Shown piece by piece: positions 2,941 through 51,701 of a stretch of 64,000 bases of DNA (position 1 is the stretch's first letter; the number at the start of each line of letters is the position of its first letter). Below the pieces are notes generated by a model, which made no database searches, had not been told where the DNA came from, and saw only the letters and a program-made list of their open reading frames with translations. This stretch comes from Povalibacter uvarum (GTDB taxonomy: Bacteria; Pseudomonadota; Gammaproteobacteria; Steroidobacterales; Steroidobacteraceae). A program made the position numbers and the translations under genes. The stretch spans positions 806,001 to 870,000 of the forward strand of contig NZ_JACHHZ010000003.1 of NCBI RefSeq assembly GCF_014202975.1. Reading direction: 5' to 3'.

Positions 2941-3008
2941 GACGTCCGGCTGAAGCCGGACCCACAGTCAGAGCGTTCTGATTGTGGGTCCGACTTCAGT
3001 CGGACGTC
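2941..3008. repeat. Family B palindromic repeat, inverted pair
   Basis: Two inverted copies of a 25-base unit (GACGTCCGGCTGAAGCCGGA and its partner TCCGACTTCAGTCGGACGTC) enclose a short spacer, so the whole can fold into a long hairpin. It lies between the convergent ends of the MFS and APC genes. Single copies of the same unit are at 24841 and 44337. It may help terminate transcription on both strands, but there is no T-run. Confidence 0.8.
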
Positions 3009-3038
3009 GGCGCGTCAGCGCCTCTTGGAATGCGCGGG

Positions 3039-4454
3039 TCAGCTGCGCTCAGCCTTCGCCAGCGCGCTCTGATGTCGCGTGACCAGCAGGTAGATCAACA
3101 GGCCGGCTGCGTTCCAGATGAAGAACCACTTCTTCGTGATGCCGGGCAGGTTCCAGAAGAGATAGAGGCACCCTACGATTGCGAGTGGGCCGACCAGCCA
3201 CCAGACAGGTGAGCGGAACTTGCGCGGGAAGTCGGGATGTTTCACCCGCAGCACCATCATGCACACGGCCACAGCGATGAATGCGGCGAGCGTGCCGGCG
3301 TTCGCGAGCGCGGCGATCTCGTTGAGCGGCAGCAATCCGGCGATGATGGCAACGATCACACCGGTGATGAGCGTCATCAGAACCGGCGAGCCGGTGCGTG
3401 GGTTGATGGTGCTCAAGCCCTGCGGCAGCAGTCCGTCGCGGGCCATGACGAAGAAGATGCGGGACTGACCGTACATGAACGCCATGATGACTGTCGGCAG
3501 TGCAATCACGGCGGCGCCGGCGATCACGGTGGCGGCAAAGGGATGCTGAAGATTGCGCAGCACCATCGCGAGCGGTTCGGGGCTGTTCGCGAGGTCGAGA
3601 TAGCTGGCGCCGCCGAGTGCCACGGCAGCCACTGCCATATAGATGAAGGTGCAGATCAGCATCGAGCCGATGATGCCGATCTTGAGGTCACGGCTCGGAT
3701 TGCGTGTTTCTTCCGCTGCCGTCGAGACGGCATCGAATCCGTAGAAGGCGAAGAAGATGATGGCCGCGGCCGCCATGACGCCATGGGGTACCCCGTTGAC
3801 CTCGCTGACCCAGCCGTAAGGCATGAATGGCTGGAAATTCCCGCTGTCGAATGCGGGTGCCGCGAGCGCGATGAAGATGCCGAGCGCGATCAGTTTCACG
3901 AACACGAGAACCAGGTTCACGGTCGCGCTCTCTTTCGTGCCGATTGCGAGCAGGCCCGCCACCGCGAGAGAAATGATGATGGCGGGCACGTTGATCAGTC
4001 CACCCGCGTGCGGTCCCGCGAGCAACGCATCCGGTATGTTCAATTCCGCCGCTTTCAGCACACCGGTGGCGTATCCCGACCAGCCGACGGCCACCGCGCT
4101 GCACACAACCGTGTACTCGAGGATCAGCGACCAGCCGACGATCCATGCGAGTAATTCGCCGAGGACTACATAGCTGTACGTATAGGCGCTGCCGGCCACA
4201 GGCATCATCGTTGACATCTCGGCGTAGGCAAGCGCCGCACACACGCAGACGATGCCGGCGATCACGAAGGACAGGATGACGCCCGGCCCCGCCAGTCCTG
4301 CGCCGACACCTGTCAGCGTGTAGATCCCTGTGCCGATGATGCCCCCGACGCCGAGGCCGAGCAGATGCGGCCAGCTGAGGGTGGGTTTGAGTGCACTGTG
4401 AGCGATGCCTGAGGCGACTGATTCGAGTTGTTTGCGTCGGTTCCAGAAGGCCAC
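3039..4454 (-). CDS. APC-superfamily amino acid permease (cationic amino acid transporter type)
   Basis: 471 residues with about 12 to 13 transmembrane segments. The APC TM1 signature GVGGIIGTGIYTLTG is near residue 35, with helix-breaking glycines that bind the substrate backbone. Another conserved block, FFAFYGFDAVSTAAEETRNP, is near residue 235, as in CAT/YfnA-like permeases, which import amino acids across the inner membrane with protons. Translation starts at GTG 4454 with GGAG eight bases upstream. It ends convergently with the MFS gene. The specificity is not determinable. Confidence 0.9.
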   Translation of the reverse strand: MAFWNRRKQLESVASGIAHSALKPTLSWPHLLGLGVGGIIGTGIYTLTGVGAGLAGPGVILSFVIAGIVCVCAALAYAEMSTMMPVAGSAYTYSYVVLGELLAWIVGWSLILEYTVVCSAVAVGWSGYATGVLKAAELNIPDALLAGPHAGGLINVPAIIISLAVAGLLAIGTKESATVNLVLVFVKLIALGIFIALAAPAFDSGNFQPFMPYGWVSEVNGVPHGVMAAAAIIFFAFYGFDAVSTAAEETRNPSRDLKIGIIGSMLICTFIYMAVAAVALGGASYLDLANSPEPLAMVLRNLQHPFAATVIAGAAVIALPTVIMAFMYGQSRIFFVMARDGLLPQGLSTINPRTGSPVLMTLITGVIVAIIAGLLPLNEIAALANAGTLAAFIAVAVCMMVLRVKHPDFPRKFRSPVWWLVGPLAIVGCLYLFWNLPGITKKWFFIWNAAGLLIYLLVTRHQSALAKAERS

Positions 4455-5048: not shown

Positions 5049-6656
5049 ATGGGCAAGAACATCATCATCTGTTCGGATGGCACCGGGAATACGGCCATCA
5101 AGGGTCGCGGCACGAACGTCTTCAAGATGTTCGAATGCATCGATGTGAATTCGCACCGGTTCCATCCGGAGCGATCGCCGCAGGTCGCCATCTACGACGA
5201 CGGCGTCGGCACGGAGAGCATGAAGCTCCTGCAGATCCTCGGCGGAGCGGCGGGATACGGACTCAGCCGCAATGTCCGTCAGCTCTACAAGGAGCTCTGC
5301 CGCATCTATGACCCGGGCGACCGGATCTTCCTGTTCGGTTTCAGCCGCGGCGCCTTCACCGTGCGCAGCCTCAGCGGTTTCATCGGCACCTGCGGCATCA
5401 TCGATGTGGCCCGCCTCGCCGGCAGCGAGGATCTCGATGACCTGGTGAAAGAGGCGTACCAGGTCTATCGCGGCTGCTATCGCACCTGGCTCATGAAGAA
5501 GATCATCGGCCCCGGGGATCGCGAGGCGACGACGCGATTCCGCGAACGGCATTGTCACGGCGGCGAGCGCATCCACTTCGTGGGCGTCTGGGACACCGTC
5601 GATGCAGTGGGGCTGCCGCTGCACATATCGAACCTGATCAACACGCTGGTCTACCAGTTCAAGTTTCCCGACCTGGTGCTGAGCAAGAGCGTCGATCGCG
5701 CGATTCATGCGCTGGCGATCGACGACGAGCGGCAGTCCTTTCATCCGCTCATCTGGGACGAGCGCCAGCCACCGCAGCCCGGCCAGTCGATCGAGCAGGT
5801 CTGGTTTGCCGGCGTGCATTCGAATGTCGGCGGCGGTTACCCCAAGCAGGGCATGTCGCTCGTCGCGCTCGACTGGATCATGCATGAGGCGGAGCAGTCG
5901 GGCCTGCGTTTCGTGCCGGCGGAGCGTCAGCACTATCGCGAGCACGCGAACGTCGACGACAAGCTCTACGACCCGCGGGCGGGCCTGGGTACATTCTATC
6001 GCTGGCTTCCCCGCGATATCGCGCAGATGTGCAAGTCGAGCGGCGTTCAGCCGAAGCTGCATCTGAGTGTGCTCGAGCGCATCGCTCACGGCACCGACGA
6101 CTACAGACCCGGTAATCTGCCGGCGAATTCACAGGTCGTGATCACGCCCTCCGGAGACCCGACGAAGGACGCGGCGGCACGCGAACGCGCGGAGGCGGCG
6201 CAGCAAGTGCTTCAGGGCTCGCATCCCAAGATCAGTTCGCTGCTGGAAGCCGTTGGGACGCGCATCGTTGTCGGGCGTTTCTCCTATCGCGTGTTCGCGC
6301 TGACGATCGCAGCTGTGTTGCTGCTCGGTGCCGGTGCGCCCGCAGGTGCAACAGGTTCCGCCGCGTCCTTCTTCACCAGCCTGGGCCTGCTGCTGTTCGA
6401 ACTGGTCACCAGCCCCATCGATACGCTGCTCAACCTGTTCTGGCACGGGCCGAATTCGCTCTTGATGATGAGCGTCCTGGTCGTCGGGTTGCTGGTGGCG
6501 TGGCTGCTGTCGTCGTGGTCGACGCGTGGCATGGAGCGGGCGTTCGCCGAGTTCTGGTTCACGCAGCAACAGAAGCTGCGTGCCGGGCTCAAACGAGCCC
6601 GGGCGCGCAGCAGCGAGATCCAGGACTGGCGCAATCCGCAGGAGAAGAGTGCGTAG
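5049..6656 (+). CDS. DUF2235 alpha/beta hydrolase with C-terminal membrane segments
   Basis: 535 residues. The N terminus (IIICSDGTGN, residues 4-13) and the nucleophile elbow GFSRGAFTVRSL near residue 97 are hallmarks of DUF2235, the family of T6SS phospholipase effector Tle1 and of many unassigned bacterial and fungal proteins. W-D-T-V-D-A-V-G and a G-x-H-S-N-V-G-G-G-Y block near 260 are also typical. After residue 410 there are two or three hydrophobic helices and a basic tail, which suggests membrane anchoring. The ATG at 5049 is preceded by GAGGA; an upstream TTG would add 12 non-conserved residues. No T6SS genes are nearby, so a secreted effector role is not supported. Confidence 0.85.
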   Translation: MGKNIIICSDGTGNTAIKGRGTNVFKMFECIDVNSHRFHPERSPQVAIYDDGVGTESMKLLQILGGAAGYGLSRNVRQLYKELCRIYDPGDRIFLFGFSRGAFTVRSLSGFIGTCGIIDVARLAGSEDLDDLVKEAYQVYRGCYRTWLMKKIIGPGDREATTRFRERHCHGGERIHFVGVWDTVDAVGLPLHISNLINTLVYQFKFPDLVLSKSVDRAIHALAIDDERQSFHPLIWDERQPPQPGQSIEQVWFAGVHSNVGGGYPKQGMSLVALDWIMHEAEQSGLRFVPAERQHYREHANVDDKLYDPRAGLGTFYRWLPRDIAQMCKSSGVQPKLHLSVLERIAHGTDDYRPGNLPANSQVVITPSGDPTKDAAARERAEAAQQVLQGSHPKISSLLEAVGTRIVVGRFSYRVFALTIAAVLLLGAGAPAGATGSAASFFTSLGLLLFELVTSPIDTLLNLFWHGPNSLLMMSVLVVGLLVAWLLSSWSTRGMERAFAEFWFTQQQKLRAGLKRARARSSEIQDWRNPQEKSA

Positions 6657-6669
6657 GGCGCCGCTGGTC

Positions 6670-7230
6670 CTACACTCCGCGGATCAGCACGATGAGTCCC
6701 ATGATCAGGAAGATCGTGGCCGCGATGCCGTGCACGAGCTTCATCGGCAGCTTCGTGGCGGCAACTTCGCCCAGCAGCACGGCAGGGACGTTCGCCAGCA
6801 TCATTCCCGCCGTCGTTCCCAGCGTGACGAGCAGCAGCGATTGATACTTGGCCGCGAGGGCGACGGTCGCGATCTGGGTCTTGTCGCCCATCTCCAGCAG
6901 GAAGAACGCGACCAGCGTCGTGCCGAAAATGCCGAAGCGCGGCGGCTGGCTCGATGTCTCCGGCGACCCATCCGGAACGAGGGTCCACAACGCCATCGCG
7001 ATGAACGACACCCCGAGGATCCAGCGCATGGCGTTGGGGCCGATGGCTGCGGCGAGGGCGCTGCCTACGGCGCCGGCGAGGGCGTGATTCAGCAGGGTCG
7101 CGGCCAGGATGCCGAGAATGATCGGGACGGGTCGTCGGTACTTGGCGGCCAGGACCAGGGCCAGCAGCTGGGTCTTGTCGCCGACTTCGGCGAGCGCGAC
7201 GACGCCGGCGGAGATGAGGAGTGCTTCCAT
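6670..7230 (-). CDS. UPF0016/GDT1-family Mn2+ exporter
   Basis: 186 residues with six transmembrane helices in two repeats. Each repeat has the family signature E-x-G-D-K-[ST]: ALAEVGDKTQLLAL at residues 12-25, and EMGDKTQIATVAL near 112. UPF0016 (human TMEM165, yeast Gdt1, Vibrio MneA) proteins are cation/proton exchangers, and the proteobacterial ones export manganese. The manganese riboswitch in its 5' leader supports that role strongly. The gene is expected to be induced when cellular Mn2+ is high and to protect against Mn toxicity. Confidence 0.94.
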   Translation of the reverse strand: MEALLISAGVVALAEVGDKTQLLALVLAAKYRRPVPIILGILAATLLNHALAGAVGSALAAAIGPNAMRWILGVSFIAMALWTLVPDGSPETSSQPPRFGIFGTTLVAFFLLEMGDKTQIATVALAAKYQSLLLVTLGTTAGMMLANVPAVLLGEVAATKLPMKLVHGIAATIFLIMGLIVLIRGV

Positions 7231-45616: not shown

Positions 45617-47485
45617 CTATTCCGGCTGCTTCGCGAGATCCTGGGTAAACCGATCCCGCGATGCACGGAAGCGCCCGGTGGTCGTCATCGAGGAGAAGAA
45701 GCCGCTGAGAGAGGAGTCGTACGCGACCACGCGATTGCGGCCCGCGTGCTTCCCCTGATAGAGCGCAGCGTCCGCATTGGCGAGCAGCTGCCGCAGCTCG
45801 TAACCGCAGGACGCGGTGGTTTCCACACCGAAGCTGGCGGAGAGGCTGATTTCCCGTCCGTCGTGAAGGAGCACGAGATCGGCGACCGCCCGCCGCAGCT
45901 GTTCGCAGCGTTCGCGGGCCGCTTCCAGCGTGCAGCCAGGCAGCAGCACGCCGAATTCTTCGCCGCCGACGCGGCCGAGGACATCGCCGGTTCGCAGGTG
46001 CGTGCGGAAGGCCGCTACGACCTGTTTGAGCGCGGCATCGCCAGCGGCATGCCCGTACTGGTCGTTGATCGCCTTGAAGTGATCGAGGTCGCACAGAACG
46101 ACACAGACTTCCTGGTCCATCTTCTGGCTCGCTGCCAGCGTGCTGACGGCGAGCTCGATGAAATGCGGCCGGTTCGAGATGCCCGTCAACCCGTCGACCT
46201 GCGACAGCTTCATGAAATGCAGCTGCGAGCGCTTGGTCTTGTAGGCGAAGAAGATGATGAACGCCACCAGCATGAGCAGCAGCGCGATATAGAGCCGGCT
46301 GGCTTCGACCGCTTTCTTGTCGAGGGCCTGCTGCAGCTGGAGCACTTCGTTCTGCTTGTTCAGCGCGTCGATCTGGAACTGGTTGGCGAGAGATTGGTGC
46401 TTGACCTTCTCGTAAGCGAACTGGCGCGCGCTCAGTTCATCGAGATAGCCTTTGTCCGCGGCAGCGTATTTTTCGTGATACTCGAGGGCAGCGGCGAGGT
46501 CCCCGCGTTCACGCGCCAGCAGGTAGAGCAGTCGGTAGCTCGGCAGCAGGGGTTCGACGAATCCTTCCTGGGTCGAGTTGTCGATCGCACTGAGGGCGTA
46601 CTTGCGCACGAGATCGGGCTTGCCCATCTCCCGGTAGATCCGCGCCAACAGCGAGTCATACAGGGAGATCAGCGGTTTGTAGCCGGTCTTGTCGATCTCC
46701 TCGCGCCGGCCGTCGAGCAATGCCAGGGCGAGATCGTGCCGGCTGAGGCGCAGGTAGTTGTCGGCGGCATACACGCGAATGAAGTTCGCACGGCCGAGAT
46801 CGCCGATGCGGGTGCACGCGTCGATCGTGTCTTCCATTTCTTCGGCGGACGGCTCTACCCGGGCCGCCTTGTAGATGGCTTCGAGCTTCAGCCGGCCGCC
46901 GCGACAGGTGCCGAGGCCCGCCCAGTTCTCCTGGACGATCTGGTCCGCGTATTTGATGGCGATGTCGTCCAGTCCCACCTGCGCGTACAGGACTGCCGCG
47001 ACACCGAGACCTTGCTGGCGCGCCGCGGGGTCGGTGATCTCCGGCAACAGGTGGAGGAGTTCCTCGAGCCGGGCAAAGGCTTCTTCGTAGCGCCTCGAAA
47101 TGCTCAGCACATTCGTGATTGTCGCGAGCGCGCGGAAACGCAGGGTCGGCTCCGCGTCGGTCTCGAGCAGGCTGCGCAGCATGGGAATCGCGACGGGATA
47201 GTCCGCGGAATACGCGGCTGCCCATGCCTTCAGGTATTGCAGGCGATGCAGCTGCGGCGGCGGCAGCGATCCGCTGCGACGGTCGACATCCGAGAGAATC
47301 GAGACGAATGCGGGATGATCTATCGACTTGAGGCGGTCCGCCTTGCCCAGCAGATCGTCGATCTCATCGGCGCCGGCCGTGGCGCCGGCCAGGACGAGCA
47401 ATAGCGACAGGACAAGACCGCGCGGCGACAGTCGCCACGCGGTCCTGTTGTGCCCTGGCAGCAGCGGTTTTCGCTTGCTGGTCAC
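45617..47485 (-). CDS. TPR-containing membrane diguanylate cyclase (GGDEF)
   Basis: 622 residues from GTG 47485. A signal or anchor segment (R-G-L-V-L-S-L-L-L-V-L-A-G-A-T-A-G-A) is followed by a roughly 360-residue helical, TPR-like periplasmic region, one transmembrane helix (Y-I-A-L-L-L-M-L-V-A-F-I-I-F-F-A-Y near 410) and a C-terminal GGDEF domain with the intact active-site loop R-V-G-G-E-E-F near 510. It should make cyclic-di-GMP in response to a periplasmic signal. It lies 24 bases downstream of the borosin-precursor-like gene on the same strand, so it may be co-transcribed. Confidence 0.92.
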   Translation of the reverse strand: MTSKRKPLLPGHNRTAWRLSPRGLVLSLLLVLAGATAGADEIDDLLGKADRLKSIDHPAFVSILSDVDRRSGSLPPPQLHRLQYLKAWAAAYSADYPVAIPMLRSLLETDAEPTLRFRALATITNVLSISRRYEEAFARLEELLHLLPEITDPAARQQGLGVAAVLYAQVGLDDIAIKYADQIVQENWAGLGTCRGGRLKLEAIYKAARVEPSAEEMEDTIDACTRIGDLGRANFIRVYAADNYLRLSRHDLALALLDGRREEIDKTGYKPLISLYDSLLARIYREMGKPDLVRKYALSAIDNSTQEGFVEPLLPSYRLLYLLARERGDLAAALEYHEKYAAADKGYLDELSARQFAYEKVKHQSLANQFQIDALNKQNEVLQLQQALDKKAVEASRLYIALLLMLVAFIIFFAYKTKRSQLHFMKLSQVDGLTGISNRPHFIELAVSTLAASQKMDQEVCVVLCDLDHFKAINDQYGHAAGDAALKQVVAAFRTHLRTGDVLGRVGGEEFGVLLPGCTLEAARERCEQLRRAVADLVLLHDGREISLSASFGVETTASCGYELRQLLANADAALYQGKHAGRNRVVAYDSSLSGFFSSMTTTGRFRASRDRFTQDLAKQPE

Positions 47486-47509: not shown

Positions 47510-47941
47510 CTACTTCTTGCGGCTGGCTTTCTTCTTGCCACCGCCTTTCTTCTTGCTGGCTTTTTTCTTGCTGCTCTTCTTCTTGACGCCACCCTTCTTG
47601 GGTGCCGGCTTCTTTGGTGCCTTCTTCTTGCCGCCGCCCTTCTTCTTGCCGCCCTTCTTCTTTCTGCGGGGCGCGCTGGCCGGCTTGCCGCCGTCATCGG
47701 GCGGAGTCGGCGGTGCGCCAGGTTCCTCGCCGCCGTCTTCCGGCGCTTCGAGCGACGCGAAAACGTTCGCGCTGGCGCCCATCAGTTCTTCGAGATCGCG
47801 CTGGTCCTGGCTCAGCAGCGCTTCGCGCGCCGCAGTGCCGATGCCGGCCGTTTCCATGGCGCGTACCAGATCTTCGCCGGAGCTGCCGCGCAGTTGCGCG
47901 TCGCTGCCCATCTTCTCCAGAAACTCGATCAGCGTTGTCAT
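47510..47941 (-). CDS. Putative split-borosin precursor: borosin-binding-like N-domain plus Lys-rich histone-like tail
   Basis: 143 residues behind AGGAAAC. Residues 1-55 are a compact helical domain (L-I-E-F-L-E-K-M-G-S-D-A-Q-L; then L-L-S-Q-D-Q-R-D-L-E-E-L-M-G). They resemble by eye the borosin-binding domain of SonA, the separate precursor of the Shewanella borosin. Residues 56-65 (G-A-S-A-N-V-F-A-S-L) sit where the methylated core follows in SonA. Residues 66-88 are acidic and Pro/Gly-rich. Residues 91-143 are about half Lys, in K-K-K-G-G and K-K-K-A-S-K repeats, like histone H1 or AlgP tails. The gene follows the methyltransferase by 110 bases on the same strand. The precursor role is inference from similarity and context; a DNA-binding protein is the alternative. 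Confidence 0.72.
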   Translation of the reverse strand: MTTLIEFLEKMGSDAQLRGSSGEDLVRAMETAGIGTAAREALLSQDQRDLEELMGASANVFASLEAPEDGGEEPGAPPTPPDDGGKPASAPRRKKKGGKKKGGGKKKAPKKPAPKKGGVKKKSSKKKASKKKGGGKKKASRKK

Positions 47942-48051
47942 GTAGTTGTTTCCTGTTCTTGAGTGGGAAGGTCGTTCAATGCTACGCCGTCATCAAAACA
48001 TCGCTGTCCGTTCCGTCCGGGTCTCTCCATGTCAGCGGCAATGTTTTCCGA

Positions 48052-49410
48052 TCACGCATGGATCGTGACTTGTTCATGCTGAGTGCGCCGGGAATTCTGT
48101 GCTGGAACCGACGTGCGTGCAATGGACCACGTCGCCGTGGAGTCGGTGATCTCGCACTCGCTGAAACCGACCGACTGCAGGATCGCAGTCATCGGCGCAT
48201 TCGCGGGTGCCGTCCGTGCGAAGACTCGCGCAATTGCCGGTTGCATGAGTGCGTGCCTGACGAGCCCGTCGAAAGCTTCGCGCCCGTACCCCCGGCCGCG
48301 TGCTTCGGTTCGAAGGATGATGCCCGCCTCGATCTCCCGGATAAGGGATTTCGAGCGGTTGAAGCCGCAGAAACCCAGGGTTTCTCCGCTGGCACCGTCC
48401 ACGACCGCATAGGACCGCCAGGCCTGCGACGGCTCACGGCTCATGCGCAGTGCCTTGCCGAAACTTCTCAACGCCGTGGCTCGCGTCAGCACCGGTCCAA
48501 TGAGCTGCATGGTCGAAGGGTCCGAATAGAGAGTGCAGAAGAGCTCCCGATCGCATTCGTCGATGAGGCGCATGCGCAGGCGGTCCGTCGAGAACGCTGC
48601 TGAGTTCTCTCCCGCTGTGTCTTTTTTCGAGCGGTCCAGCCGTGAGAGCTTGCGGCGCAACTCCGTGTTGGGCTCCAGTGCGCGTGCGGGCGGTATGACC
48701 AGCGTGAAATGGATGTCGAGATCTGCCTTCGGCAGGTCGCGCAGCTTCATGCGATCCATGCGCGGCCGCTGCGTCGGCAGCGTCGCCGCCTTGTAGGCGA
48801 TGACTTCGTGGTTGCCGTCGTAGTCGGGGCTCAGCAGATCGACGAGGACTTGCCGGTACTCGGCGCCAGTGGAGAAACGGGTGACGGACTGGTCGCCCGC
48901 AATGCCGATCTGCCAGAGGATGAGATACGCCGACGGGTCGATGCGGCGGCGGTAGAACATGAACTGACTGGCTTCGTAGTGTGCGCAGCCGACTTCGCCG
49001 GGATCGATCCCGAGGTCCGCATAGAGGCAGTCCTCCGCGGAGACGCCCGGTTCCATGTGCGCGTCGAAGCCTTCGCCGCGGGCGACCGCAACCGCCTTAC
49101 GCGGCGGCAGGGCGAAAACAGTGGGGTGACCGTAGAACGCGCCGCAGACCTTCTTGCCCGCGCGAACCTCGGTCATCATGGCTTCGACCATCTCACGATA
49201 GGTTTCCGTGCGCGGCTTGCCTTCACGGTAGTACTGCTGGAGGCTGCGTACGTCCGGGTGCATCTGCGCGATCCACAGCTCCATGACGCCGTCGGAAAGC
49301 CCGGTGAAGACGACGTCGGCCTGTTCGATGTAGCTGCGGCAGAGCGGGGTGAGATGCGATCCGAGCGTCATGCCGACGCCGACACAGACCAGACTGCCTC
49401 GCTTGGACAT
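48052..49410 (-). CDS. Borosin-type peptide backbone alpha-N-methyltransferase fused to a GNAT domain
   Basis: 452 residues. Residues 1-245 are a tetrapyrrole-methylase-fold SAM methyltransferase closest to SonM/OphMA: G-S-L-V-C-V-G-V-G-M at 5-14, R-S-Y-I-E-Q-A-D-V-V-F at 25-35, R67 and Y71 in the spacing of the OphMA catalytic Arg/Tyr, Y-G-H-P near 93, and E-P-G-V-S-A-E-D-C-L-Y-A-D-L-G at 120-134. E-A-S-Q-F-M-F and I-A-G-D-Q also match SonM as I recall it. Residues 273-430 are a RimJ/L-type GNAT with acetyl-CoA loop R-G-R-G-Y-G (371-376). The enzyme should N-methylate backbone amides of a separate precursor, here the gene just downstream. The acetyltransferase substrate is unknown. Confidence 0.87.
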   Translation of the reverse strand: MSKRGSLVCVGVGMTLGSHLTPLCRSYIEQADVVFTGLSDGVMELWIAQMHPDVRSLQQYYREGKPRTETYREMVEAMMTEVRAGKKVCGAFYGHPTVFALPPRKAVAVARGEGFDAHMEPGVSAEDCLYADLGIDPGEVGCAHYEASQFMFYRRRIDPSAYLILWQIGIAGDQSVTRFSTGAEYRQVLVDLLSPDYDGNHEVIAYKAATLPTQRPRMDRMKLRDLPKADLDIHFTLVIPPARALEPNTELRRKLSRLDRSKKDTAGENSAAFSTDRLRMRLIDECDRELFCTLYSDPSTMQLIGPVLTRATALRSFGKALRMSREPSQAWRSYAVVDGASGETLGFCGFNRSKSLIREIEAGIILRTEARGRGYGREAFDGLVRHALMQPAIARVFARTAPANAPMTAILQSVGFSECEITDSTATWSIARTSVPAQNSRRTQHEQVTIHA

Positions 49411-49739: not shown

Positions 49740-51701
49740 CTACTCCCCTTTGCCTGATGCGACGCCGAAGAGCCTTGCGAGAAACACCGTCTCGACCTCG
49801 CGGCGCAGGTCGTTGTTGGGCTTCTTCATGAAGCCGTGCCCCTCATCGGCGAACACGACGTACCAGGCTTCGACGCCATTGGCCCGGATGCCGGCGACCA
49901 CCTGGTCCGATTCGGATTTCGGCACTCTGGGATCGTTGGCGCCCTGCATGACCAGCATCGGCTTGGTGATCTTCTTCACGTTGGCGAGCGGGGAGATGCG
50001 CTTGAAGACTGCCTGCATCTTCGGGTCCCGCTCATCGCCGTACTCGGCCCGGCGATTGTCGCGGCGATAACTCTCGGTGTTCTTCAGGAAGGAGCTGAAG
50101 TCGCTGATGCCGTAGCGCTCGACGCCGCCGACCAGGCGATCGGCGTAGTGCGTCATTACCGCGAGCGACATGTATCCGCCATAGGACTGGCCGTACACCG
50201 CGACACGGTCCTTATCGAGCCCCGGCTGCTGCGAGATCCAGTCGAGCAGGGCGCCGATATCCTTCACGCTGTCTTCGCGCTTCTCCGCGTTATCGAGATT
50301 GAGATAGCGCTTGCCGTAGCCCGCGCTGCCGCGGACATTGGGCAGGATGACCGTCGCGCCGAGCACGTCGGCGAAGTACTGGGCTCCGGGATTCCATGAA
50401 GGCCGCGTCTGCGATTCGGGGCCGCCATGAATGTCGATGATGACCGGCGTACGCGCATCGGCTGCGATCCGCCGGGGCCGATAGACGAAGGCCGACACGG
50501 TCAGATCGTCGAACGACTTGAATCTCTCCAGCCGCGGTTCGGCGAGCGCCGCGGGATCGAGCTCGCCCAGCTCGGAAGTCGTCCACCGGGTCAGTTTTCC
50601 GGCAGCGAGATCCCAGGCCCAGACATCGCCGGGGCTGTTCGACGTCGAGAAGCCCAGTGCAAGGTGTTTGCCATCGGGCGAGAAGCCCATGTCGGCCAGT
50701 ACGCCCCGCGGCAGTTCCGGTGCGTTCAGGGTCCGGTCGCTCGCAACTTCGCGGACGATGACGCGTGAATAGCCTTCTTCATTGATCGCATAGGCGATGA
50801 GGCGGCCGTCGGGCGACAGCTTGAAGGTCTCGACATCCCACTTGAGATCGGGAGTCAGCACGGTCATCCGTCCATCCGCGATGTCGATGCGCGCGAGGCG
50901 CAGTACATCGCTGTCCCGATCGGTGCGGACGATGATGCTCCGGCCATCCGGTGTGAAGCGGGAATCGGCGTAGAGCGCTTTGCCTTTCGGCGGCGTCAGT
51001 TCCTTCGTCGTGCCTGACTGGGTATCCAGCAGCAGTATTCGCGATTCGCGGTTCGACAGGCCGCGGGTGAGCAGCACCCAGCGTTTGTCGGCGGAGATAT
51101 CGGTGGGGCCAGTGCTCCCCGGCTCGCGATGAATGGCGCGAGCCGAAGCAGGATTCGCAGGATCGGCGCTGTAGATCGTGTATTCGCTGGAGCCTTTGGT
51201 CGCTTGCGACCAGACGAGCACCTTGCCGTCGCTGCTCACCACCGGTGATTGATTGCGCGTGCCTGGCTGTGTGAGCAAGGTCGGCGTGCCGGCGAGTCCC
51301 ATTGCATAGAGCTGGAACCATTCGTCGCCGCCCGTATCGCGGCTCAGGATGAAACGGTTCGTTCCGGGGATGGTCGTTGCGCCGGCCACCGGCTCATTGA
51401 AGAACGTGATCTGGGTTCTGTCGCTGCCGGGCGCGGCGACGCGATGAATCTGCTGGGTTGCGCCGAAGCGAGTCGCGACGAGCAGCGATCCGTCCGCAAG
51501 CCAGTCCTGGAACAGGGCAGCACGATAGTTCTGGTATTGCTGGACCGTAGCGCGCGTTCCGGCGGGAATTTCCGGGACGCTTTCGAGGCTCGCCGCGCCG
51601 ATCTGCCGAGTGGCCCCGGGAGTGGTCGCAGATGCGTGCGAGAGAGCGGGAACGAGCGCCGCAACGGCGCAGAGCGCGACGACGGGAGAGATAAGGCGCA
51701 T
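49740..51701 (-). CDS. Secreted S9-family (prolyl oligopeptidase-type) serine peptidase
   Basis: 653 residues with a signal peptide (residues 1-24). Residues 30-400 form WD/Kelch-like propeller blades (D-G-K-V-L-V-W-S-Q; then S-P-D-G-R-L-I-A-Y). The C-terminal alpha/beta-hydrolase domain carries Ser in Y-G-Q-S-Y-G-G-Y-M near 495, Asp in G-A-N-D-P-R-V-P near 580 and His in D-E-G-H-G-F near 620. Members cleave peptides after Pro, Ala or acylated residues, here probably in the periplasm. It heads the minus-strand gene row containing the borosin genes. Family S9 also includes the macrocyclase OphP of fungal borosins, but that enzyme is cytosolic. Confidence 0.92.
   Translation of the reverse strand: MRLISPVVALCAVAALVPALSHASATTPGATRQIGAASLESVPEIPAGTRATVQQYQNYRAALFQDWLADGSLLVATRFGATQQIHRVAAPGSDRTQITFFNEPVAGATTIPGTNRFILSRDTGGDEWFQLYAMGLAGTPTLLTQPGTRNQSPVVSSDGKVLVWSQATKGSSEYTIYSADPANPASARAIHREPGSTGPTDISADKRWVLLTRGLSNRESRILLLDTQSGTTKELTPPKGKALYADSRFTPDGRSIIVRTDRDSDVLRLARIDIADGRMTVLTPDLKWDVETFKLSPDGRLIAYAINEEGYSRVIVREVASDRTLNAPELPRGVLADMGFSPDGKHLALGFSTSNSPGDVWAWDLAAGKLTRWTTSELGELDPAALAEPRLERFKSFDDLTVSAFVYRPRRIAADARTPVIIDIHGGPESQTRPSWNPGAQYFADVLGATVILPNVRGSAGYGKRYLNLDNAEKREDSVKDIGALLDWISQQPGLDKDRVAVYGQSYGGYMSLAVMTHYADRLVGGVERYGISDFSSFLKNTESYRRDNRRAEYGDERDPKMQAVFKRISPLANVKKITKPMLVMQGANDPRVPKSESDQVVAGIRANGVEAWYVVFADEGHGFMKKPNNDLRREVETVFLARLFGVASGKGE

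Follow-up and report, generated by a model that had tools for sequence, protein, structure and literature searches.

A split borosin locus of Povalibacter uvarum and its conserved TPR-GGDEF neighbor: a possible peptide signaling operon

Introduction

What does a backbone-methylated peptide do for the bacterium that makes it? This question is raised by a locus of Povalibacter uvarum in a 64,000-nt stretch of contig NZ_JACHHZ010000003.1 (hereafter the window; all positions without a locus label are counted from its first letter). Three genes are arranged in tandem on the minus strand. The first encodes a methyltransferase fused to a GNAT acetyltransferase (48052..49410; 452 aa). After a 110-nt gap follows a precursor gene (47510..47941; 143 aa), which has a ribosome-binding site AGGAA (47950..47954) 8 nt before its ATG. 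The third gene starts 24 nt after the precursor stop with a GTG codon and encodes a diguanylate cyclase of 622 aa with tetratricopeptide repeat (TPR) and GGDEF domains (45617..47485). A first-pass annotation of positions 47510-49410 had proposed a split borosin pair, consisting of a SonM-like methyltransferase gene directly upstream, on the same strand, of a 143-residue gene, and both open reading frames (ORFs) are exactly as it described. The cyclase gene lies outside that stretch and was overlooked, and its conservation is the strongest functional clue at the locus. We lean, if only slightly, toward the reading that these genes form a split borosin signaling operon, in which the borosin peptide would be the ligand of the neighboring TPR receptor and feed into cyclic di-GMP (c-di-GMP).

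Identification of the split borosin pair

The methyltransferase domain (residues 5-255; 48646..49398) matches SonM (7ltc, E = 7.8e-77) and the OphMA-type fungal enzymes (E of about 1e-50) in a search of the PDB. The six residues compared, which are of importance in SonM according to PMC8429565 (Y58, R67, Y71, Y93, F99, and W166), are all kept here as Y61, R67, Y71, Y93, F99, and W166, and these are invariant in 12 aligned rows. The first-pass annotation had named a grouping with cobalamin-pathway methylases as evidence against a borosin enzyme; in both the PDB search and the alignment, the domain groups with SonM and OphMA instead. Compared with the sister genome locus L031, the ratio of nonsynonymous to synonymous substitution rates (dN/dS) of this domain is 0.07. 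Across the class as a whole, SonM-like enzymes are uncommon and were found in 10 of 369 genomes (E cut-off 1e-40). The precursor is encoded as a separate protein adjoining the enzyme, as in split borosins. The fused borosin types I-III have the core in cis, C-terminal to the enzyme, and the C-terminal half is here a GNAT domain.

As a single sequence, the N-terminus of the precursor had no match to a Pfam model and no convincing match in the PDB. With a profile built from ten precursors excluding the Shewanella rows, the first seven matches among 177,635 PDB sequences were all SonA chains (E = 6.4e-4 to 7e-3). Conversely, a profile of the borosin-binding domain (BBD) derived from other genera only had the precursor as its sole match (E = 9e-13) among the 440 window ORFs of at least 45 aa, far better than chance would give. 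The AlphaFold model of the precursor has five helices (residues 3-13, 15-18, 22-31, 36-44, and 47-64) and no structure beyond them; the mean confidence score (pLDDT) is 69, with 83-92 per ten-residue block over residues 1-50. In a Foldseek search with this model, SonA accounted for eight of the 11 matches, including the first six (best TM-score by target 0.79, rmsd 2.1), at weak E-values of 0.66 and weaker. Both the profiles and the fold thus identify residues 1-55 (47777..47941) as a SonA-like BBD, and the claim of a split borosin pair holds. Judged from sequence and models, these genes are a real bacterial split borosin set and are expected to produce a peptide with a methylated backbone.

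Conservation of the three genes across genomes

Using profiles of the four proteins, we scanned 66 loci (the window, 14 related loci, and 51 from the genomes of the enzyme search), all of which were selected by the enzyme and not by the cyclase. Strong enzymes, defined as methyltransferase ORFs scoring at least 400 bits, were found in 52 cases, and 50 of these had at least 2.5 kb of downstream sequence (L063 and L080 were excluded). A BBD gene and a TPR-GGDEF gene were found, in that order, downstream of the enzyme and on the same strand in 48 of the 50 loci, or 47 of 49 distinct ones (L065 and L008 are one and the same contig; L081, a 2-base placeholder region, was dropped). In L014, the same three genes are reordered as BBD, cyclase, and enzyme, with 675 nt between the end of the cyclase and the enzyme. 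The genome that contains the window has 36 GGDEF genes in 6.32 Mb, such that chance alone would place a GGDEF gene on the same strand and no more than 2 kb downstream in approximately 0.6% of cases. Among the 15 weaker methyltransferase ORFs (below 400 bits), a BBD gene and a TPR protein are adjacent in five (L071, L072, L073, L078, and L079).

The association extends to the genus from which SonM and SonA were crystallized. Relatives of SonA were found in 41 of 60 genomes of the Shewanella group, and the enzyme, the SonA-like gene, and a TPR-GGDEF gene are in tandem in all 18 loci examined, where the start of the cyclase ORF is often only a few bases away from the stop of the SonA-like gene.

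Joint presence was also compared at the genome level, with the lists of enzyme and TPR matches being matched by eye. Among 233 genomes of one family, the enzyme is present in 162 (E cut-off 1e-40) and the TPR domain in 159 (E cut-off 1e-25); 157 genomes have both, five only the enzyme, two only the sensor, and 69 neither. The seven discordant cases comprise the five enzyme-only genomes, which belong to genus g314 and have weaker matches, and the two sensor-only genomes G468 (near the cut-off) and G511. In a set of 40 relatives including the genome of the window itself, the window TPR domain has a single match in each of 11 genomes, namely, all nine that have a strong enzyme together with G006, in which the contig begins at the BBD-cyclase pair, and G005.

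The cyclase and evidence bearing on a receptor role

The GGDEF domain (residues 429-585; 45731..46201; PF00990, E = 2.6e-41) has an intact GGEEF site at residues 507-511 and an RxxD motif located five residues before it. The TPR domain (residues 39-396; 46298..47371) appears to be flanked by an N-terminal hydrophobic segment on one side and by a second predicted membrane segment on the other. Pfam TPR_12 is below the cut-off in this protein; helical repeats are found in its AlphaFold model. Across 49 loci, two cysteines (Cys194 and Cys224 in the window), the membrane segment before the GGDEF domain, and positively charged residues (K/R) behind that segment are kept in 49 of 49. These conserved features fit a periplasmic, disulfide-bearing TPR sensor. 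The TPR domain is also more constrained than the GGDEF domain (dN/dS 0.10 vs. 0.18 against L031). In a Foldseek search with the model of the whole protein, only GGDEF-containing entries were found among the 50 matches listed. The PDB matches of a TPR profile were generic TPR proteins or designed repeats, with RapF among the weak generic ones (E = 0.0067).

Across 49 loci, distances between cores follow distances between TPR domains, with a partial rank r of 0.36 given GGDEF and enzyme (0.36-0.39 over both runs); none of 300 label permutations reached this value. The corresponding r is 0.18 for core versus enzyme and 0.007 for core versus GGDEF domain. In the run of 45 loci with equal column numbers, from which L004, L012, L013, and L015 were left out because the core window was misplaced, the values are 0.36 (0.28-0.46) for TPR and 0.08 (0.04-0.14) for GGDEF. 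The BBD distances likewise follow the TPR domain (0.44) and, to a lesser extent, the GGDEF domain (0.27).

BBD genes are also found beside TPR sensors with a different output. TPR-hybrid histidine kinases adjoin BBD precursor genes in L071 (5851-8919, minus strand) and L073 (6083-9331, plus strand), where they were identified by Pfam, and in L072 (5774-8734, minus strand) and L078 (1804-4692, minus strand), where they were identified by profile and sequence. The gene order is enzyme, BBD, and TPR kinase in L073 and L078, and BBD, TPR kinase, and enzyme in L071 and L072; in L072, the enzyme is additionally followed by a TPR-GGDEF gene. In L071, the stop of the kinase gene overlaps the methyltransferase start. 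A natural fusion was found in Luteimonas mephitis (L079:3249-5783, plus strand; 844 aa), which has an N-terminal hydrophobic segment, TPR, a membrane segment, GGDEF, and the borosin methyltransferase in one chain. Its BBD gene (2968-3219) is directly upstream, and the domain has a weak match to Pfam LigA (E = 3.9e-4, below the cut-off).

Extra BBD-cyclase pairs that do not have their own enzyme gene in the stretch were found in L060 and L061, and two whole trios are in tandem in L082. These arrangements suggest that several precursor-sensor pairs can share a single enzyme. Taken as a whole, the evidence that the TPR protein may act as a receptor is circumstantial.

Proposed mechanism

In the mechanism that we propose, the SonM-like enzyme would bind the five-helix BBD and methylate backbone amides in NVFASLEAP just after it, as expected by homology. 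The GNAT half would then acetylate the precursor or the released peptide. The most likely target would be an amino group of the core or its new N-terminus, because 13 of the 15 loci with a GNAT do not have the lysine-rich tail found in the window. An unlinked protease may free the peptide, and the N-methyl groups may give it stability and allow inner-membrane crossing; N-methylation is said to favor membrane permeability in the abstract of PMC8429565. As the central step, the peptide would bind the TPR domain of the adjoining membrane protein and switch its GGDEF output, thereby acting on c-di-GMP. Hybrid histidine kinases would be driven by the same sensor type in some related loci. The lysine-rich tail may be a later addition of this lineage, perhaps serving solubility or as a membrane or nucleic-acid tether, which is conjecture.

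A broader claim may be made tentatively, namely, that split borosins of the kind described here are peptide-to-c-di-GMP signaling systems. The methylated and perhaps acetylated peptide would be a transporter-independent, membrane-crossing autoinducer with a dedicated membrane TPR receptor, and GGDEF or histidine kinase outputs would be exchanged behind a conserved sensor. If true, a ribosomal peptide would be linked to c-di-GMP by a new route, and backbone N-methylation would have a biological reason. The conserved receptor-like neighbor makes the question of peptide function directly testable.

Several observations weigh against a signaling operon. The first step is supported by homology and all later ones are inferred. 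No exporter, transporter, protease, or resistance gene was recognized by eye among the 25 most widespread neighbor families, and a signal peptide is not evident in the precursor. The model leaves a gap here, in that a cytosolic peptide would have to reach a periplasmic domain, either by passing through the membrane unaided or with the help of an unlinked system. The sensor topology itself is read from hydropathy, with the N-terminal segment above the cut-off in 44 of 49 loci. The loci compared in the covariation test share phylogeny, which weakens that signal. The linkage has gaps as well. L009 has neither a BBD nor a TPR-GGDEF partner, and a TPR partner is missing in 10 of the 15 weaker methyltransferase loci (among these, the downstream part is truncated in L011 and L041 and the upstream part in L017; in L041, a BBD gene adjoins the enzyme). 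The cyclase of G005 has no BBD in the stretch examined, and G007 and G013, which belong to the same genus as the window and whose weaker enzymes show 46 and 42% identity, yielded no TPR match. The TPR protein of Parashewanella (L015:6021-7859, plus strand), whose neighboring enzyme and precursor are normal, lacks a GG[ED]EF motif.

Alternative explanations

The TPR-GGDEF protein may instead sense another cue, with its c-di-GMP output setting the time at which the peptide is produced or put to use. Responses to external signals are common among membrane sensor cyclases, and the linkage observed in the 48 of 50 strong loci, the 233 genomes, and all 18 Shewanella loci fits such a sensor. However, under this explanation, the core would not be expected to track the TPR domain more closely than the GGDEF domain or the enzyme, nor would BBD-cyclase pairs be expected without their own enzyme (L060 and L061) or BBD genes beside TPR sensors with a different output; we regard this explanation as unlikely. 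A role of the cyclase as a scaffold or regulator of the modifying complex, binding the precursor or the enzyme rather than the processed peptide, is distinctly unlikely. It could draw on the GGDEF-methyltransferase fusion of L079 and on the TPR-TPR contact between RcbA and RcbB that controls a cyclase in Vibrio, as described in PMC12282931. However, the second membrane segment and the K/R residues that follow it in 49 of 49 loci would put the TPR domain across the membrane from the enzyme.

The peptide may also be an ordinary borosin natural product, antimicrobial or similar, for which the cyclase is the producer's self-recognition sensor. Fungal borosins are bioactive natural products according to PMC8429565, but the lack of any recognizable transporter or resistance gene among the widespread neighbors speaks against this possibility, which we consider very unlikely. 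Finally, a tetrapyrrole-type methylase could lie beside an unrelated, histone-like lysine-rich protein; the Pfam domain name is TP_methylase, and lysine-rich tails occur in nucleic-acid binding proteins. With the strength of the SonM match, the six SonM residues, the BBD profile and fold, and the conserved pairing, this explanation is strongly disfavored and extremely improbable.

Relation to known systems

The closest known system is the split (type IV) borosin SonM/SonA of Shewanella oneidensis, as described in PMC8429565. The enzyme family, key residues, separate precursor, gene order, five-helix BBD, and position of the core just after the BBD are all shared, and the related Shewanella loci also carry the TPR-GGDEF gene. 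Unlike in SonM/SonA, the enzyme here carries a fused GNAT, and the precursor continues into a long tail that is first acidic and then lysine-rich. Neither GGDEF nor diguanylate is mentioned in the main text of that paper. The fused borosins OphMA and dbOphMA share the methyltransferase domain but differ in that the precursor is here a separate protein.

Among TPR-GGDEF proteins, the Vibrio cyclases are similar in having TPR in front of GGDEF, and membrane TPR cyclases are already known. From the portion of PMC12282931 considered here, V. parahaemolyticus has two cyclases with predicted periplasmic TPR domains (cited therein), and the TPR part of Vibrio RcbB represses the cyclase. RcbB works together with a second TPR protein at the flagellar pole; unlike at our locus, no peptide gene or methyltransferase is mentioned in that portion. 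The resemblance of our sensor to RRNPP receptors is limited to TPR repeats and is generic, as reflected by the weak RapF match; the GGDEF effector and the membrane segments set it apart from that family. RRNPP receptors, such as Rap phosphatases, are known as cytosolic proteins of Gram-positive bacteria in which TPR repeats read peptides.

We found no paper that joins borosin with diguanylate cyclase or tetratricopeptide, in a search that did not include the main split-borosin surveys (Imani 2022, Cho 2022, Lee 2024); we therefore make no claim of priority for either the link to the cyclase or the fusion to a GNAT. Borosin types 0 to XI are described in PMC11395268, the main text of which does not mention GNAT or acetyltransferase. 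At the level of literature listings, borosin and acetyltransferase do occur together, in three papers.

The GNAT domain

The GNAT domain (residues 277-416; 48163..48582; Pfam Acetyltransf_3, E = 1.9e-21) has an RGRGYG acetyl-CoA loop. This RxxGxG pattern is present in the window and L031 and is less regular in several relatives, e.g., L004 and L010. With a dN/dS of 0.26 against L031, the domain evolves faster than the methyltransferase and is still constrained. The first-pass annotation had considered the GNAT fusion and the very basic precursor tail to be an unfamiliar architecture. The tail is indeed unusual and real, but the fusion is not the remarkable part, and we rejected it as the novelty of this locus. 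Among the strong-methyltransferase loci, 15 have a GNAT, which is fused in three (the window, L031, and Alteromonas L004) and encoded by a separate gene in 12 (L032-L038, which belong to the same genus as the window, L066-L069, and L010). The separate gene is located between the methyltransferase and the precursor in 11 of the 12 and upstream of the methyltransferase in L010.

In the methyltransferase tree, the fused rows require two changes, one in the window and L031 and the other in Alteromonas L004. The GNAT loci are at the base of a 48-row clade, where several forks are weakly supported and long branches meet. In the simplest reading of this tree, the GNAT would be an old partner gene that was lost in a 32-row branch and in L013.

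Core, linker, and tail of the precursor

The hydrophobic stretch just after the BBD (residues 56-68, ASANVFASLEAPE; 47738..47776) is the probable methylated core. In alignments, it is found at the core position of SonA; most members of the genus have NVCC[LM][VI]xAPxD and the window has NVFASLEAPED. It is followed by an acidic, proline-rich linker (residues 69-89; 47675..47737) and a lysine-rich tail (residues 90-143; 47513..47674) with 27 lysines in 54 residues and a net charge of +30, which is of low confidence and without helices in the model. Against L031, dN/dS is 0.16 for residues 1-70, approximately 0.94 for residues 71-89 of the linker (over 17 codons), and 0.23 for the tail. Compared with the linker, the low value of the tail is such that the tail seems to be kept by purifying selection.

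Among the listed precursors, the lysine-rich tail was found in only two, those of the window and L031; the others have acidic or mixed tails, or none. The tail as a general GNAT substrate was rejected because 13 of the 15 GNAT loci do not have it. In L032-L038, five of the seven precursors end with RVARA[GS], a motif that is absent in the window and L031, which have the lysine-rich tail in its place.

Other features of the loci

Apart from the proteins described above and from ORFs that overlap them in other reading frames, the most widespread of the 25 top neighbor families is a LysR-like ORF (named by eye), found in 11 of 66 loci and absent from the window. A peptidase upstream of the operon (49740-51701, minus strand), which is of the prolyl-oligopeptidase/S9 type by eye, was considered as the maturation protease and rejected as not being a conserved part of the locus; at an E cut-off of 1e-8, the sister L031 is the only further locus among the 66 that has a homolog. 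Shewasin-type pepsin-like proteases are linked to borosins. No match to PF00026 was found in the genome of the window, and control genomes likewise gave none.

In Shewanella, the cyclase of L105 (4294-6043, minus strand) is split over two ORFs, and L109 has a second, partial methyltransferase ORF (6079-6681, plus strand). The C-terminal half of the L067 precursor (6397-6822, plus strand) repeats a DKDEEEIR-type unit about four times, similar to a multi-core precursor.

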